This document shows, one piece after another, positions 25,520 through 34,381 of a stretch of DNA of 64,000 nucleotides. Every line of letters begins with the position of its first letter. The stretch's first letter is position 1. Position numbers and translations under genes: made by a program. This DNA comes from Salsipaludibacter albus (GTDB lineage Bacteria > Actinomycetota > Nitriliruptoria > Nitriliruptorales > Nitriliruptoraceae): positions 1-64,000 of the forward strand of contig NZ_JAHOPH010000016.1 in NCBI RefSeq assembly GCF_019798055.1. Direction: 5' to 3'. The notes beneath the pieces are model-generated. The model saw only the letters and a list, made by a program, of their open reading frames with translations. It was not told the DNA's origin and made no database searches.

Positions 25520-25565
25520 CGCCTCGGTCCGTCACCGCCCTCGCGGCCTTCGCGGCCGGTGGGCT

Positions 25566-25790
25566 CGGCTGCGAACGTCATTCGGGCCGAACGTGAGGTT
25601 CGGGGTGGCGTTCGGCGCCGGATGGGTCGGCTGCGAACGCCATTCGGGCCGAACGTGAGGTTCGGGGTGGCGTTCGGCGCCGCATGGGTCGGTTGCGAAC
25701 GCCATTCGTGGCGAACGTGGCGTGGGGATGCGGTGGGTTGGCGTTCGGGGCCGCTCGGGGTGGCCGCGAACGCCGTCCGGCCGGGCTCTC
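25566..25790. repeat. 62-bp tandem repeat array in a 473-base intergenic region
   Basis: The region 25507-25979 holds no gene. Copies begin at 25566, 25628 and 25690 (62-bp period); the third carries a 9-bp insertion and a fourth, partial copy starts at 25761. Each unit has words GCGAACGCCA and TGGCGTTCGG that are complementary, so the array can fold into alternating hairpins. A 35-bp core bounded by GCGTTCG and CGAACGCCA is also found, with the same 62-bp period, at 48270-48364. The array lies between the divergent HAD gene and the peptide-transporter operon. Confidence 0.82.
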
Positions 25791-25979: not shown

Positions 25980-27737
25980 GTGAGGACACGCAGACGCCTG
26001 ATCGCCGCCGCCGCGGCGGCCGCGCTGGTGATCACTGCCTGTGGCGGTGGAGACGAGGAGCCGGCCGACACCACGGACACCGAGACCTCGACCGACACCG
26101 CCACCGACTCGACCGAGACGTCCGCGTCGTCCGAGGCGCCCAGCGAGGAGGCGTCCGCGGCTCCCGCCGGCGAGGGCGAGGCGGTCACGACCGTGTCCAA
26201 CGAGGCCGGCTGTGCCGAGGACTACCCCGGCAAGATCGGCAGCATCGAGGCGACCGACACGCTCGAGGTCGTCTTCACGCTGTGCTCGCCGGACCCGGCC
26301 TTCCTCCAGAAGGTCGCCTTCATCCCGTTCGCCGTCCAGCCGTCCGAGCACATCGTCGAGACCGGCGGCGCGCCGCTGGAGAACCCGATCGGCACCGGAC
26401 CGTTCGCCCTGGACACCTGGAACCGTGGGTCGGAGCTGACCTTCACGGCCAACGCGGACTACTGGGGCGACGCCCCGGCGGCCCAGTCGCTGGTCTTCCG
26501 CTGGGCGACCGAGTCGGCGCAGCGCATCACCGAGCTGCAGTCCGGCACGGCCCAGTACGCGACCACGCTGTCGGCCCCCGACTACGAGCTGGTCGAGGGT
26601 GACGAGAACCTGCAGCTGCTCGAGGACCTGAACCCCAACGTGTTCTACATGGGCTTCAACAACACCTACGAGCCGTTCACCGACAAGCTGGTCCGCCAGG
26701 CGATCGCGATGGGCATCGACCGCCAGCGCATCGTCGACACCTACTACCCGACCGGGTCGGAGGTGCCGGACTACTTCACGCCGTGCCAGATCGAGAACGC
26801 CTGCGTCGGTGACCCGTGGTACGACTTCGACCCCGAGGCCGCCCGCAACATGCTGGCCGAGGCCGGCTACCCCGACGGGTTCGACACCACGATCTACCTG
26901 CGTGATGTCTACCGCGTCTACCTCCCCGAGCCCCAGACGGTGGCCCAGGAGATCCAGACGCAGCTGTCGGAGAACCTCGGCATCAACGCCGAGATCGAGG
27001 TCCAGGAGTCCGGTGCGTTCATCGAGGCCGCCTCGGCCGGTGAGCTCGACGGCATCCACCTGCTGGGCTGGGGTGCGGACTACCCGCACGTCACCAACTT
27101 CCTCGACTACCACTTCGCCGGCAACGAGCAGTTCGGCGACGCCTACACCGACATCGTCGACACGCTCGCCCAGGGCGCCGCGACGGTGGACGTGGCCGAG
27201 GCCGAGCCGATCTACACCGAGGCCAACAACCTCATCCGTGACGAGGTGCCGATGGTGCCGATCGCCCACGGAGCAGCCGCGGACGCCGCGGTCGCCGGCC
27301 TGGGCAACGCCGCGTCGCCCCCGTTCGGTGCACCGCAGTTCGACAGCATGACGCCCGAGGGTGACTCGATCGTGTTCGTCCAGAACGCGGAGCCGATCTC
27401 GCTGTTCTGCACCGACGAGTCCGACGGCGAGTCGTTGTCGGCCTGTGAGCAGGTGCTCGAGGGCCTGTACCAGTACGACCTCGAGGGCAACGCCGTCCCG
27501 GCGCTGGCCGAGGAGTGCGCTCCCAACGAGGACGGCACGGTGTGGACCTGCTCGCTGCGCGAGGGCGTGACGTTCCACGACGGGTCGGAGTTCGACGCCA
27601 CCGACGTGGTCACGACCTGGTCGGTCGGCATCGACGCCGCCAGCCCGCTGCACGTCGGCAACACCGGCGGGTTCGAGTACTACACCTACCTGTGGGGCGG
27701 CCTGATGAACGCCCCGCCCGCCGAGGACGAGGGCTGA
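25980..27737 (+). CDS. peptide-type ABC importer binding lipoprotein, circularly permuted
   Basis: A 585-residue extracellular lipoprotein of the SBP_bac_5 (DppA/OppA) family. GTG 25980 has a GAGGAG site. Lipobox VITAC puts the lipidated cysteine at residue 21; residues 22-67 are an acidic Thr/Ser/Glu linker. The order of the family domain is rearranged: the protein starts with the middle part (IGTGPFALDTWNRG at about 137-150, then ADYWG and GFNNT) and runs to the family's normal C-terminus. Residues 463-585 then contain the family's N-terminal segment (AEPISLF, EGLYQYD, LREGVTFHDGSEFDATDVV). Total length is normal, so nothing is missing. Similar permuted proteins may exist in Chloroflexota. 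It precedes dppBCDF-like genes. Confidence 0.87.
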   Translation: MRTRRRLIAAAAAAALVITACGGGDEEPADTTDTETSTDTATDSTETSASSEAPSEEASAAPAGEGEAVTTVSNEAGCAEDYPGKIGSIEATDTLEVVFTLCSPDPAFLQKVAFIPFAVQPSEHIVETGGAPLENPIGTGPFALDTWNRGSELTFTANADYWGDAPAAQSLVFRWATESAQRITELQSGTAQYATTLSAPDYELVEGDENLQLLEDLNPNVFYMGFNNTYEPFTDKLVRQAIAMGIDRQRIVDTYYPTGSEVPDYFTPCQIENACVGDPWYDFDPEAARNMLAEAGYPDGFDTTIYLRDVYRVYLPEPQTVAQEIQTQLSENLGINAEIEVQESGAFIEAASAGELDGIHLLGWGADYPHVTNFLDYHFAGNEQFGDAYTDIVDTLAQGAATVDVAEAEPIYTEANNLIRDEVPMVPIAHGAAADAAVAGLGNAASPPFGAPQFDSMTPEGDSIVFVQNAEPISLFCTDESDGESLSACEQVLEGLYQYDLEGNAVPALAEECAPNEDGTVWTCSLREGVTFHDGSEFDATDVVTTWSVGIDAASPLHVGNTGGFEYYTYLWGGLMNAPPAEDEG

Positions 27738-27949: not shown

Positions 27950-28021
27950 GTGCACGTGCCCGACCTCCCCCCGTGCCGGCACCGGGTCGTGGGCGTCGTC
28001 GTCGCGGAGGTCGTGGCGTGA
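27950..28021 (+). CDS. possible 23-codon upstream peptide overlapping dppB
   Basis: A GTG-started frame of 23 codons ends TGA at 28019-28021, overlapping the dppB GTG start (28018) as GTGA. GAGGA lies 12 bases upstream. The peptide (MHVPDLPPCRHRV...) has no recognised family. The overlap geometry is the same as between true genes of this operon, so it could serve translational coupling, but a short chance frame is as likely. Confidence 0.25.
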   Translation: MHVPDLPPCRHRVVGVVVAEVVA

Positions 28022-29097
28022 TCGCCTACGCCGTCAAGCGGATCCTCACCGCGATCCCGGTCCTGTTCGGGGTCGTCGTGGTGGTGTTCCTGCTGCCACG
28101 CGTGGTCCTGGGCGACCCGTGCCGGGCCGTTCTGGGTCCCCGCGCCACGGAGGCCTCCTGCGAGCAGTTCGCCGCCGCCAACGGTCTCGACGACCCGATC
28201 TGGGAGCAGTTCACCCGGTTCGTCGGGGACGTGCTGACCTTCGACCTCGGCGAGTCGATCAAGTTCTCCCGCCCGGTCACCGAGGTGTTGCTGGACCGCC
28301 TGCCGTTGACCATCGAGCTCGCGCTGTCGGCGCTGCTGCTGGCCATCGTGGTGGGCGTCCCCCTGGGCATCGCCGCCGCCCGCTGGCACAACAGCCCGGT
28401 CGACATCGGGACGATGGCCTTCGCCAACGTCGGCGTGTCGATGCCGATCTTCTGGCTCGGCCTGATGCTGTCCTACCTGTTCGCGGTCGTGCTGGGTGAC
28501 ACCTTCCTGGCCCTTCCGCCCACGGGACGGTTCAGTCCGGGGCTGACCCCGGAGCCGTTCTACGAGGTGTGGGGCTGGACGGTCTCGGACAGCGGGTTCT
28601 GGTCGGGCCTGCTGGAGTTCCTGTCCAAGTTCGCGGTGTTCAACGCGGTCATCTCGGCCCAGTGGGCCGGCGCCTGGGACGCCATCCGGCACCTGATCCT
28701 GCCGACGATCGCGCTCGCGACGATCCCGATGGCGATCATCGCCCGGATGACCCGTTCGTCCCTGCTGGACGTGCTGGGTCGCGACTACGTGCGCACCGCC
28801 GCGGCCAAGGGCGCGCGGGATGCCCGGGTGGTCCGGCGCCACGCCCTGCGCAACGCCCTGCTGCCGGTGGTCACGATCATCGGGCTGCAGCTGGGACTGC
28901 TGCTGGGTGGTGCCGTGCTGACCGAGACCGTGTTCGTCCTGCCGGGCATCGGCACGGCGCTGTTCGACGCGATCACGACCCGTGACTACCCGATCGTGCA
29001 GGGCTTCACCCTGGTGATCGCGTCGACCTACGTCGTCGTCAACCTGGTCGTGGACCTGTCCTACGGCTACCTCGACCCCCGTGTGAGACTGCAGTGA
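28018..29097 (+). CDS. dppB: peptide ABC importer permease (DppB/OppB type)
   Basis: A 359-residue inner-membrane permease with six helices; the first is YAVKRILTAIPVLFGVVVVVF and the family N-terminal TM_PBP1 domain with DPCRAVLG follows. The ATPase-docking EAA-like loop is RTAAAKGARDARVVRRHALRN, and the C-terminus SYGYLDPRVRLQ is the usual DppB ending. GTG 28018 has GGAGG 7 bases before it. It forms the pore with the next gene product, which overlaps by four bases. Confidence 0.92.
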   Translation: MIAYAVKRILTAIPVLFGVVVVVFLLPRVVLGDPCRAVLGPRATEASCEQFAAANGLDDPIWEQFTRFVGDVLTFDLGESIKFSRPVTEVLLDRLPLTIELALSALLLAIVVGVPLGIAAARWHNSPVDIGTMAFANVGVSMPIFWLGLMLSYLFAVVLGDTFLALPPTGRFSPGLTPEPFYEVWGWTVSDSGFWSGLLEFLSKFAVFNAVISAQWAGAWDAIRHLILPTIALATIPMAIIARMTRSSLLDVLGRDYVRTAAAKGARDARVVRRHALRNALLPVVTIIGLQLGLLLGGAVLTETVFVLPGIGTALFDAITTRDYPIVQGFTLVIASTYVVVNLVVDLSYGYLDPRVRLQ

Positions 29098-30068
29098 GCG
29101 ACCAGTTCCTGGACGGCGACCTCCGCTCGAGCGGGGCCGAGGCCGACGCCAAGCGGACCGTGCAGCCGGCCGGTCCGGGGGAGGGGCCGTCGCCGGACGC
29201 GCTGCTGGACAAGCCGACCTCGATCTGGCGGCTGGGGATGCGACGCTTCTTCCGCCGCAAGCTCGGGGTCCTGGGTCTCGCGATCGTCACCCTGCTCACG
29301 CTCGTGGCGCTGTTCGCGCCGGTGCTGGCTCCCTACGACCCGATCCAGCAGCTGGACCGGGTCGAGGAGGTGCAGCGTCGCGACCCGCCGTCGTCCGAGC
29401 ACCTGCTGGGCCTGGACTCCAACGCGCGCGACCAGCTGTCACGGATCATCTGGGGGGCCCGGATCAGCCTGCCCCTGGGCGTGTCCATCGTGATGGTGGC
29501 GATCATGATCGGGGCCGCCATCGGCGCCATCGCGGGCTACTTCGGTGGTGCCGTCGACTCGGTCCTGATGCGGATCATGGACGTGATCCTGGGGTTCCCC
29601 GCACTGCTGCTGGCCGTGGCCATCGCCTACGTGCTCGGACCGCAGATCCGCAACGTGCTGATCGCCGTGGCGGTCGTGACGCTGCCGCAGTACGCGCGGG
29701 TCATGCGGTCCTCGGTGCTGTCGATCAAGGAGATCGACTACGTCGCCGCGTCCCAGGCGCTGGGTGCCTCGTCGTGGCGGATGCTGCGCACCCGGATCCT
29801 GCCGAACTCGCTGACCCCGCTGATCGTGCTCGGCACGCTGGGCATCGCCGGCGCCATCCTCGAGGCGGCGGCACTGTCGTTCCTGGGGCTGGGCGCACAG
29901 CCGCCCCAGCCGGAGTGGGGCGCGATGCTCGCCCAGGAGTACACCCTGATCCAGACCTATCCCCACCTGGTGATCTACCCGGGCCTGGCCATCATGATCA
30001 CGGTCCTGGGGTTCAACCTGCTCGGTGACGGCCTGCGCGACGCCTTCGACCCGAGCCTGAACGAATGA
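29094..30068 (+). CDS. dppC: peptide ABC importer permease (DppC/OppC type)
   Basis: A 324-residue permease. Residues 1-45 are a soluble, acidic lead; then RRFFRRKLGVLGLAIVTLLTLVA is the first helix and the OppC_N domain. The HLLGLDSNARDQLSRIIWGAR segment is the DppC signature, the EAA loop is ASQALGASSWRMLRTRILPN, and the C-terminus [14 protein letters not shown] is standard. GTG 29094 overlaps the dppB stop. Confidence 0.92.
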   Translation: MSDQFLDGDLRSSGAEADAKRTVQPAGPGEGPSPDALLDKPTSIWRLGMRRFFRRKLGVLGLAIVTLLTLVALFAPVLAPYDPIQQLDRVEEVQRRDPPSSEHLLGLDSNARDQLSRIIWGARISLPLGVSIVMVAIMIGAAIGAIAGYFGGAVDSVLMRIMDVILGFPALLLAVAIAYVLGPQIRNVLIAVAVVTLPQYARVMRSSVLSIKEIDYVAASQALGASSWRMLRTRILPNSLTPLIVLGTLGIAGAILEAAALSFLGLGAQPPQPEWGAMLAQEYTLIQTYPHLVIYPGLAIMITVLGFNLLGDGLRDAFDPSLNE

Positions 30069-31336
30069 GTGGCACCCGGCCCGACCCGACGCCCGCCGAC
30101 GACGAGGTCCGCATGGAGGTGCACGACCCGGACCCCGCGGGGGCCGACGCCGCACGGGTCGCCGCCGACCGCGCGATCGCGGACCAGGCGCTGATCGACG
30201 ACGTGCCCGACGAGGCGGTCGTGGAGCCACGCCCGGTCCGCCAGCGAGACCCCGACGAGCCCGCCCTGCTGGACGTGCGCGGGCTCAAGACCCACTTCCA
30301 CACCCGCAGCGGGGTCGTGCAGGCCGTCGACGGGGTCGATCTGTCGGTCCAGCGCGGCGAGGTCCTGGGGGTGGTGGGCGAGTCCGGCTGTGGCAAGTCG
30401 GTGACCGCCCTGTCGATCATGGGGCTCGTGCCCTACCCCGGCAAGGTCGAGGCTGGCACGGTCACGTTCGACGACCAGGACCTGACCGGCCTGTCGAACC
30501 GGCAGATGTCGCGTCTGCGTGGGGACCGGCTGTCGATGATCTTCCAGCAGCCCGGGTCCGCGCTGAACCCGGTCCACCGCGCCGGGCGCCAGATCGAGGA
30601 GGTCTACGAGCTCCACCGGGACTACGACGACGAGGAGCAGACGCGGCGGGCGGCCGACATGCTGCGCCAGGTCGGCATCCCCGACCCGGAGCGTCGGGCC
30701 CGGGCCTACCCGCACGAGCTGTCGGGCGGGATGGCCCAGCGGGTCATGATCGCGATGGCGCTCGCCTGCCAGCCCGACCTGCTGATCGCCGACGAGCCCA
30801 CCACGGCGTTGGACGTCACCATCCAGGCCCAGATCCTCGACCTGATGCGTGACCTCGTGGCCGAGTCCGGCACCGCGGTGGTGCTGATCACCCACGACCT
30901 CGGCGTGGTGGCCGAGATGGCCGATCGCGTGGCCGTGATGTATGCCGGACAGGTGGTGGAGGAGGCCGACGTCATCACCCTGTTCGAGGACCCCAAGCAC
31001 CCCTACACCCGGGGGCTGATCGGCTCGATGCCGGTCCTGGGTGACCGGCGCGAGGCGCTCGAGACCATCCCCGGCGTGGTGCCGAACCTGGTGGACCCCC
31101 CGGTGGGGTGTCGCTTCGCCGACCGATGCCATGCCCGCGTGGAGCACGACCTGTCGATCTGCACCGAGCAGGACCCCGAACTGCTGCCGGTCGTCGAGAC
31201 CGACGGGGACGCCCACGTCGTGCGCTGCTTCCTGCACCACGACGCCGAGGGCCGCCCACGCGCGGTCGAGGGCGGGTCGACCCCGGCCGACGTGGTCACG
31301 GCCCCCGCCGAGCTCGCACCGGGGGAGGGGCCATGA
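30065..31336 (+). CDS. dppD: peptide ABC importer ATPase (DppD/OppD type) with N-terminal extension
   Basis: A 423-residue ATPase. The core begins near residue 67 ([12 protein letters not shown]); Walker A is GESGCGKS, signature [16 protein letters not shown], Walker [13 protein letters not shown]. The oligopeptide-transporter C-terminal domain has [11 protein letters not shown] with cysteines near those that bind an Fe-S cluster in OppD/DppD. The 65-residue acidic, Ala-rich N-terminal extension is not usual for the family and is unexplained. ATG 30065 overlaps the dppC stop. Confidence 0.92.
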
Positions 31337-32367
31337 GCACGCCCGTGACCGGCAGCGGCACGATCACCGCCGAGCGCACGACGCCCCTGGTCGAGCTGCG
31401 CAAGCTCACCAAGGTCTTCCCGGTCAGGGGTGGCGTGCTGCAACGCCAGGTCGGCGAGGTCCGCGCCGTCGACGGTGTCGACCTCGAGATCCGTCGTGGC
31501 GAGGCGCTGGGACTGGTGGGTGAGTCCGGCTGTGGCAAGACCACGCTGGGCCGGATGCTCGTGCGGCTGCTCGAGCCGACCTCGGGAACGATCCTGTTCG
31601 ACGAGGACGACGTCACCCACGCCGGCCCCCGCGACCTGCGCCAGTTCCGCCAGGACGTCCAGATCATCTTCCAGGACCCCTCGACCAGCCTCGACCCACG
31701 GGCCCAGGTCGGCCACGCGATCAGCGAGGGCCTGCGCATCCACGGGATCGGCGACCGTGCCGAGCGGCGCGAGCGGGTCGGCGACATGCTCGAGCTGGTC
31801 GGGCTCAAGCGGGCCCACGCCGAGCGCTACCCCCACGAGTTCTCGGGGGGCCAGCGCCAGCGGGTCGGGATCGCGCGTGCACTGATCCTGCGGCCACGCC
31901 TGGTCGTGGCCGACGAGCCGGTGTCGGCCCTGGACGTCTCGGTGCAGGCCCAGGTCCTCAACCTGCTCAAGGACCTGCAGACCGAGCTCGACCTGACCCT
32001 GCTGTTCATCGCCCACAACCTGGCCGTGGTCGAGCACGTGTCGGACCGGGTCGCGGTGATGTACCTCGGACGGGTCGTCGAGCTGACCGACCGGGACACG
32101 CTGTACCGGCACCCGACCCACCCCTACACCCAGGCGCTGCTGTCGGCGATCCCGATGCCGGATCCCCGCAACCGCCGCAAGCGCGTCCTCCTGCAGGGCG
32201 AGATCCCGTCACCGATGGACCCGCCGTCGGGCTGCCGTTTCCACCCGCGCTGCCCGATCGCCGAGGAGGGGCTGTGCGATGTCGAGGACCCGCCCCTGAT
32301 GGACGTGCCGCGCGACGTCGACCACGAGGCCGCGTGCCTCCTGCGCGCCGGCCCCCGCGCCCGCTGA
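31333..32367 (+). CDS. dppF: peptide ABC importer ATPase (DppF/OppF type)
   Basis: A 344-residue ATPase: Walker A GESGCGKT, signature [16 protein letters not shown], Walker [13 protein letters not shown], and the oligo_HPY tail with [16 protein letters not shown], whose three cysteines resemble the OppF Fe-S ligands. It is the final gene of the importer operon, overlapping dppD by four bases. It hydrolyses ATP to drive peptide uptake. Confidence 0.93.
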
Positions 32368-32403: not shown

Positions 32404-32455
32404 CGTCGAGTGTGCGCATCACGGCCACATGTGGCCGCGGGCAGCACACGCGACG
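32404..32455. repeat. intergenic inverted repeat related to the one at 16424
   Basis: The left arm CGTCGAGTGTGCGC (32404-32417) is identical to that at 16424-16437; the right arm, ending 32455, pairs with one or two mismatches. The middle holds a perfect 14-bp palindrome, GGCCACATGTGGCC (32423-32436). It lies 37 bases after dppF and probably terminates that operon; the rest of the 199-base gap to ggt shows nothing else. Confidence 0.68.
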
Positions 32456-32566
32456 AGAGGTGGCCGGCTGACAGCGGGTCGGGGCCGGGCCATACTCGCT
32501 GTCAGCGGCTCCCCCCGCCGTGCCGTCCCGCCTTCGGACGGCTCCCCCCGGAGAAGGAATCCCCCG

Positions 32567-34381
32567 ATGCCTGCACCGTCGCGTTCTCGCCACCCGTCCG
32601 CCGCCAGCGTCCGCTGGTGGGACCGCCGACCGGGCCGACTTGCCGTCGTCGTCCTGGCGCTGTTGACCGCCATGGCGACCCCCGCCCTGGCCCAGGACGC
32701 GCTGCCGCAGGCCGTCACGACCGAGCGCGAGATGGTCGTGACCGCCAACCCGCTGGCCACTGCGGCCGGCGAGAAGGTCCTGCGCACCGGTGGCACGGCG
32801 GCCGACGCCTACGTGGCCGTGCAGGCCGTGCTCGGGCTGGTCGAACCCCAGTCGAGCGGGCTCGGTGGCGGCGCCTTCATGGTGTGGCACGACGGGACGA
32901 GTGGCGAGACGACCACCTACGACGCCCGCGAGAAGGCACCGATGTCGGCGACCGAGGACCGCTTCGCCGGCCTGGGATTCGTGCAGGCCTGGCAGTCCGG
33001 GCTGTCGGCGGGCGTTCCGGGCACGCCGATGCTGATGGAGGAGGTGCACGAGGCCCACGGCCGGCTGCCGTGGCAGCGCCTGTTCACCGACGGACTCCGG
33101 CTCGCCCAGGGTGGCTTCGAGCTGACCCAGCGCACCTCCGACCAGGTCGCCGGACTGCTGGCCAACAACACCAGCTGCAGTGACCGGCTGTACTTCCGTG
33201 ACCCGGTCGCGTTCGACTACTTCACCAACGGGTCCGAGACCGACTGTGCCGCCAAGCCGGCCGGGACCACGATGCGCAACAAGGACTACGCCGACACGCT
33301 CAAGCTGCTGCGCAACGACGGTGCCGACGGCTTCTACACCGGCCACCTCGCCGAGTCCATCGCCGAGGCGGTCCAGACCGACCCGAACATCCCGGGCGAC
33401 ATGACCACCGCCGACCTCGCCGCCTACGACGTCGTCGAGCGCGAGCCCGTCTGCGAGGACTACCGCGGCCACGAGGTCTGTGGCATGGGCCCGCCGTCGT
33501 CGGGCGCACTCGCCGTCGGCCAGATCCTCGGCATCCTCGAGCACTTCGACCTCGGCGACGACCCGCTGGGGGTCGAGGCCGTGCACCTGTTCAGCCAGGC
33601 CGGCCGCCTCGCCTTCGCCGACCGCAACCTCTACGTCGCCGACACCGACTTCGTCACCGTCCCGGTCGAGGGCATGCTGGACGAGGCCTACCTCGCCAGC
33701 CGCGCCGCCCTGATCACCGACATGGACATGGGCACGGCCCTGCCCGGCACCCCGCCGGGCGAGTTCGACCCGACCGCGCCCCAGCCCGCGTCGACCGAGA
33801 ACGGCACCAGCCACGTGTCGATCGTGGACCGGTGGGGCAACGCGGTGTCGGTCACGACCACCATCGAGTCCTCGTTCGGCAACGGCGTCATGGTCCCGGA
33901 CGGCGGGTTCCTGCTCAACAACGAGCTGACCGACTTCTCGTTCGCGGCGACCGCGGCGGACGGCACGCCGATCGCCAACCGCGTCGAGCCCGAGAAGCGC
34001 CCACGCAGCTCGATGTCGCCCACGATCATGTTCGACGAGTCGGGCGAGCTCGAGCTCGTGACGGGGTCACCGGGTGGGTCGCGGATCATCGGCTACACCG
34101 CCCAGTCGATCATCAACGTCGTCGACTTCGGCCTCGACCCGCAGGAGGCGATCAACGTCCCCCACCACCAGAACCGCAACGGCTCAACCGAGCTCGAGGC
34201 CCCCATCCCGGGGGTGACGTGGGACTACGACGTCGACGCACTCCGGGCCGCGCTGCAGGCGCGGGGCCACAACGTGACGGTCGGCAGCCTCGAGAGCGGC
34301 CTGTCGCTGGTCGAGGTGGTCGACGACGGCCTGGTCGGTGGCGCCGACCACCGCCGCGACGGCGCCGTCGGTGGTCGCTGA
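32567..34381 (+). CDS. ggt: exported gamma-glutamyltranspeptidase
   Basis: A 604-residue gamma-glutamyltransferase. The signal peptide ends LLTAMATPALA before QDAL. The proenzyme is full length; autocleavage and catalysis are expected at T414 in ENGTSHVSIVD, matching E. coli Thr391 of the T-T-H motif. The substrate loop SSGLGGGAFMVWH and the oxyanion pair in SPGGSRIIGYT are present. The enzyme splits the gamma-glutamyl bond of glutathione or related peptides outside the membrane, releasing a dipeptide and glutamate. ATG 32567 has a GGAGAAGGA site. Its place after a peptide importer and before hyuAB supports gamma-glutamyl peptide use. Confidence 0.93.
   Translation: MPAPSRSRHPSAASVRWWDRRPGRLAVVVLALLTAMATPALAQDALPQAVTTEREMVVTANPLATAAGEKVLRTGGTAADAYVAVQAVLGLVEPQSSGLGGGAFMVWHDGTSGETTTYDAREKAPMSATEDRFAGLGFVQAWQSGLSAGVPGTPMLMEEVHEAHGRLPWQRLFTDGLRLAQGGFELTQRTSDQVAGLLANNTSCSDRLYFRDPVAFDYFTNGSETDCAAKPAGTTMRNKDYADTLKLLRNDGADGFYTGHLAESIAEAVQTDPNIPGDMTTADLAAYDVVEREPVCEDYRGHEVCGMGPPSSGALAVGQILGILEHFDLGDDPLGVEAVHLFSQAGRLAFADRNLYVADTDFVTVPVEGMLDEAYLASRAALITDMDMGTALPGTPPGEFDPTAPQPASTENGTSHVSIVDRWGNAVSVTTTIESSFGNGVMVPDGGFLLNNELTDFSFAATAADGTPIANRVEPEKRPRSSMSPTIMFDESGELELVTGSPGGSRIIGYTAQSIINVVDFGLDPQEAINVPHHQNRNGSTELEAPIPGVTWDYDVDALRAALQARGHNVTVGSLESGLSLVEVVDDGLVGGADHRRDGAVGGR

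Follow-up and report, generated by a model that had tools for sequence, protein, structure and literature searches.

A circularly permuted DppA-like binding lipoprotein of Salsipaludibacter albus and the recurrent permutation of cluster C substrate-binding proteins

The gene at 25980-27737 of the window (the whole stretch of 64,000 nucleotides analysed here) encodes a 585-residue lipoprotein that is a circularly permuted family-5 (SBP_bac_5, cluster C) substrate-binding protein. A preliminary description of the DNA had claimed such a permutation from the order of motifs, and both the swapped order of the SBP_bac_5 matches and the alignment with Escherichia coli DppA in two blocks confirm it. 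With a probability of roughly 85%, the protein is tethered to the membrane and captures substrate, probably dipeptides, for a Dpp-type ABC importer, and its chain is a genuine circular permutant of the DppA fold, reopened at about DppA residue 116.

The reading frame starts with GTG at 25980, behind a GAGGAG ribosome-binding site, and continues unbroken for 585 codons. Its product is divided as follows:

25980-26042, forward strand: signal peptide with lipobox ITA-C21 (residues 1-21), from the translation
26043-26198, forward strand: acidic linker rich in Ser, Thr, Asp and Glu, residues 22-73, from the translation
26199-27362, forward strand: canonical middle and C-terminal part, residues 74-461, equivalent to mature DppA ~117-507 (Pfam 61-365, DppA 121-504, rotation mapping)
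27351-27374, forward strand: junction of the canonical C-terminus with the canonical N-terminus, TPEG/DSIV, the break following TPEG (family alignment)
27363-27734, forward strand: relocated canonical N-terminal segment, residues 462-585, equivalent to DppA 1-116 (Pfam 2-51, DppA 45-116, mapping)

Thus GTGPF (138), NADYWG (158) and GWGAD (363) come ahead of EPISL (471), GLYQYD (495) and LREGVTFHDG (526). The Pfam profile SBP_bac_5 (PF00496) scores 268.1 bits against a curated cut-off of 32.4, as two stretches in swapped order: residues 73-383 correspond to profile positions 61-365 and precede the match to positions 2-51, the reverse of the canonical N-to-C order. The second stretch, encoded by 27492-27641, reaches an E-value of 6.9e-14 on its own. 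Alignment with E. coli DppA (1dpe) pairs residues 83-457 with 121-504 and residues 504-569 with 45-116, and when the sequence is rotated at residue 462, one position from the boundary proposed earlier (463), both new ends fall at mature DppA ~116. DppA runs from 1 to 507 and the permuted protein from 117 to 507 and then from 1 to 116, so that the fold is complete, with nothing missing or duplicated and with a short junction, as in a circular permutant; the expectation of a normal length and a wholly retained fold was therefore correct, as were the lipobox and acidic linker. An intact N-terminal segment upstream had been named as evidence that would speak against permutation; no second such segment was found in the contig, where SBP_bac_5 matches only these two stretches. 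A 62-bp GC-rich unit stands in three tandem copies (100, 89 and 71%) at 25545-25730, some 250 bases upstream of the reading frame.

The likeness to the E. coli DppA/DppABCDF system (1dpe, 1dpp, 8z1y; PMC12136057) extends over nearly the whole SBP_bac_5 fold, the Arg and Asp that bind dipeptides and the operon order A-B-C-D-F, and the permuted protein differs in being lipid-anchored and in carrying four additional Cys pairs. We name it DppA-like rather than DppA, since it scores 145 bits with the NCBIfam DppA equivalog model, which is calibrated on close DppA orthologs and has a cut-off of 1005.

In DppA, residues 1-260 and 479-507 form lobe I and residues 261-478 form lobe II, with the chain crossing between the lobes at ~260 and ~478. 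Mapped onto these limits, residues 74-461 comprise the remainder of lobe I and the whole of lobe II, and residues 462-585 would complete lobe I. An AlphaFold model built on a five-sequence alignment reached a pLDDT of 54 and a pTM of 0.46; with canonical fragments added, these values rose to 69 and 0.64, and the core of the moved segment attained 86-89. A search of viral contigs for relatives that might deepen the alignment found none. When the model of moderate quality (pLDDT 69) was submitted to Foldseek, DppA-type proteins of the PDB ranked first (E-values of 1e-20 to 1e-23) with a TM-score of ~0.5, a value to be expected when an aligner that works in sequence order, and does not reach the placement of 462-585 against DppA 1-116, meets a permuted and imperfect model. 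The closest solved relatives are DppA and GbpA/HbpA; the PDB sequence matches listed are all family-5 proteins, and none of these chains spans the junction.

From these limits and the cut at ~116 it follows that both inter-lobe crossings are left intact. According to the mechanism we propose, the natural termini of the fold were joined via a short linker and the chain was reopened in a loop of lobe I; it would adopt the usual two-lobed flytrap with the additional domain Ib of cluster C proteins, catch dipeptides between both lobes and dock on DppBC the way DppA does. The closing motion should change little, because the cut lies far in sequence from the crossings, and what would shift is the exit point of the lipid tether. 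The earlier suggestion of an altered hinge motion or ligand size thus finds no support in this protein, in which the dipeptide-binding Arg and Asp are conserved as well; it fits better the permutants described below that are cut in lobe II, at ~274, ~344 and ~395.

A search for the same motif order, proposed in the preliminary description, retrieved 28 further sequences from independent assemblies, so that the swapped order is neither chance nor a misassembly. They include a protein from the Nitriliruptorales (L037, 76% identity), others from elsewhere in the Actinomycetota (L039 and genomes G374, G107 and G118) and proteins from metagenome-assembled genomes labelled Chloroflexi (L038, L040); several of the homologs stem from metagenome assemblies. 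A junction-spanning query, in which the canonical C-terminal part precedes the N-terminal one, matched over essentially its full length in 37 of the 301 Chloroflexota genomes sampled (identity 42-65%), which bears out the relatives suggested earlier for that phylum, and it found matches in 5 of 396 Actinomycetota genomes. The number of permuted copies rises to two or three in some genomes. Four further proteins (L041-L044) seemed permuted in a match summary ('67-544') and were rejected after a domain-by-domain search revealed the canonical order.

Maximum-likelihood trees, computed from canonical sequences together with rotated ones, unite the 29 proteins of this cut in one clade (100/100), with DppA nearby. 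Its sister group consists of canonical actinobacterial proteins (L009, L011, L012, L013, L015 and L085; 100/100 in one tree and 98/95 in another), which share the ligand residues and have the normal order. The lipobox cysteine, Cys21, is aligned in 26 of the 29 permuted sequences. An origin of the order in misassembly, a frameshift or a gene fusion, or in a pseudogene left by tandem duplication, can be practically dismissed: although tandem duplication with loss of the outer parts is a plausible path to a permutation and the source genome is split into 79 contigs, the order is common to a well-supported clade spanning many assemblies and phyla, neither part is present twice in the contig, and the gene combines a single frame, a uniform GC3 (0.90-0.98 throughout, junction included), a signal peptide with lipobox and an intact operon.

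The permuted gene heads this operon, dppBCDF (28018-32367), whose gene order is that of E. coli:

28018-29097, forward strand: dppB-like permease (Pfam BPD_transp_1 and BPD_transp_1_N; start set by similarity to E. coli DppB)
29094-30068, forward strand: dppC-like permease (Pfam BPD_transp_1 and OppC_N)
30065-31336, forward strand: dppD-like ATPase (Pfam ABC_tran and oligo_HPY)
31333-32367, forward strand: dppF-like ATPase (Pfam ABC_tran and oligo_HPY)

Genes of the dppB/dppC type also adjoin most other permuted loci of all cut types, the exceptions being L150, which lies on a short contig, L176 and L179. The DppB encoded here has Pro-Arg in place of the scoop-loop Glu41-Arg42 of E. coli DppB. 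Directly after dppF, at 32429-34381 on the forward strand, lies a gene for a secreted-type gamma-glutamyltranspeptidase (Pfam 478 bits), whose Cys-Gly product would suit as a natural dipeptide substrate; no such gene was found in the fetched flanks of permuted homologs, the same-genus one included.

In DppA, dipeptides are contacted by R383 and D436 (precursor numbering); a variant mutated at both loses binding (PMC12136057). Both residues have equivalents in the permuted protein, which are likewise conserved in the canonical sister clade:

26913-26915, forward strand: R312, equivalent to DppA R355 mature (R383 precursor), which contacts the peptide carboxylate (PMC12136057); conserved in 28/29
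27078-27080, forward strand: D367, equivalent to DppA D408 mature (D436 precursor), which contacts the peptide amino group (PMC12136057); conserved in 29/29

Given the dppBCDF operon and the conserved Arg and Asp, a dipeptide-binding protein is the simplest reading. It is unlikely, though less so than an artefact, that the protein is now specialised on a non-dipeptide ligand, such as opines, nickel complexes, heme or glycans. The ligand range of family 5 is broad and many of its members are specialised in this manner, no NCBIfam equivalog model attains its cut-off, and Pro replaces the E41 scoop residue in the operon's DppB; against this, the DppA Arg and Asp, together with the Tyr two residues past the Arg, are kept by nearly every one of the 29 members and by the canonical sisters, and the nearest solved relatives include DppA itself besides GbpA/HbpA.

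The same-cut family is further marked by four pairs of cysteines:

26211-26285, forward strand: Cys78-Cys102, beside the new N-terminus, a predicted disulfide; 29/29
26784-26804, forward strand: Cys269-Cys275, all-or-none; 24/29
27408-27446, forward strand: Cys477-Cys489, all-or-none; 28/29
27516-27551, forward strand: Cys513-Cys524, all-or-none; 23/29

Across the 29 sequences, both members of each pair are present or both are absent, without exception, and none of the pairs occurs in any canonical protein aligned. The canonical sister clade possesses a Cys pair of its own, at DppA 91/127, which flanks the cut site and is missing from the permuted family. Judging from this distribution, the four pairs are gains of the same-cut family; the protein being exported, they would form disulfides, and Cys78-Cys102, adjoining the new N-terminus, may hold that terminus in place.

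The permutation at ~116 is one of several. The same genome encodes a second permuted family-5 lipoprotein (L046; contig C34, 94206-96068, minus strand), which is followed by permease and ATPase genes of its own and is opened at DppA ~274, barely within lobe II and near an inter-lobe crossing; its chain runs through lobe II before an undivided lobe I, which, should the domain limits be right, would leave a single covalent crossing in place of two. Cuts at ~123 (L047 and L149), ~344 (L084, with a permease gene directly after it) and ~395 (L180) were also found. A family match crossing the stop codon of L084 prompted a search for a remnant of duplicated sequence 3' of the gene, and none was found. 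In the Bacillota, a family seen in 11 genomes (L189-L197, L200, L208) is cut at ~344; some of its members (L195, L197) are devoid of a lipobox, and its closest canonical relative is L209 (59% identity). The same phylum contains a separate OppA-like permutant (L188) cut at ~344-350. An OppA-like permuted lipoprotein cut at ~121 (L231) is encoded next to oppBCDF-like genes on a plasmid record from Subdoligranulum variabile, a gut bacterium (OY725879.1, 4954-6756, forward strand); the record is unannotated at this locus.

Overall, five cut sites (DppA ~116, ~123, ~274, ~344 and ~395) are distributed over Actinomycetota, Chloroflexota and Bacillota. On the trees, the cut state must have changed at least eight times, and branches with good support require at least six switches between canonical and permuted order, counts that take gain and loss together; reversion to canonical ends seems the less likely reading of these changes. 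On this reading, the family cut at ~116 is one of at least six to eight independent natural permutations of cluster C binding proteins, at five cut sites.

This recurrence raises the possibility, which we put forward tentatively, that the permutation is itself functional, shifting the lipid anchor here and elsewhere cutting lobe II, once near the hinge, with consequences for tethering, docking or closing. At least six independent order changes with cuts in both lobes, and in three phyla, point in this direction, as does the return of cuts to particular loops (three lineages at ~116 to ~123 and three at ~344). In addition, only one of 391 matching records of a plasmid set rich in Rhizobium and Sinorhizobium spans the junction, a sample that represents the Pseudomonadota by their plasmids, which limits its weight; tethering was also offered as a reason by the authors of the TpMglB-2 study (PMC4990184). 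However, some Bacillota members (L195, L197) have no lipobox, and the recurrence could be explained by loop tolerance alone. In its general form, that cluster C proteins permute repeatedly, both lobes together offering about five favoured loops, and that selection retains some permutants for their moved anchor, the idea is possible but less likely than not: the recurrence is supported, and the selective reason, namely that an anchor moved elsewhere in lobe I or to lobe II changes flytrap closing or docking, is speculative.

The closest precedent to our preferred reading, a permuted Dpp-type binding protein, is TpMglB-2 (Tp0684) of Treponema pallidum, a permuted cluster B glucose-binding lipoprotein for which the term 'Type Ic / Cluster Bc', with a subscript c subtype, was proposed (PMC4990184). 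It is likewise a natural permuted binding lipoprotein of an ABC importer with the N-terminal strands of its first lobe at the C-terminus, but it belongs to cluster B (type I fold), binds glucose, and its permutation adds a fourth hinge crossing (PMC4990184). By comparison with that published description, the cut in the protein at 25980-27737 lies off the crossings. Among the open-access papers covered, we found no report of permuted cluster C binding proteins, and repeated permutation in a peptide-binding family appears not to have been described before.

Altogether, large two-lobed binding proteins with a natural permutation were previously known, to our knowledge, from one sugar-binding family, and the recurrence of permutation in the peptide-binding family, rather than any single protein, is what should surprise specialists. 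Profile annotation conceals such permutants because either half matches by itself, and the source genome alone carries two that are permuted differently. Canonical relatives with up to 59% identity allow before-and-after experiments. The permutants are natural tests of the influence that the site of the tether and the connectivity of the chain have on flytrap closing and docking, and they offer ready permuted scaffolds for biosensors.
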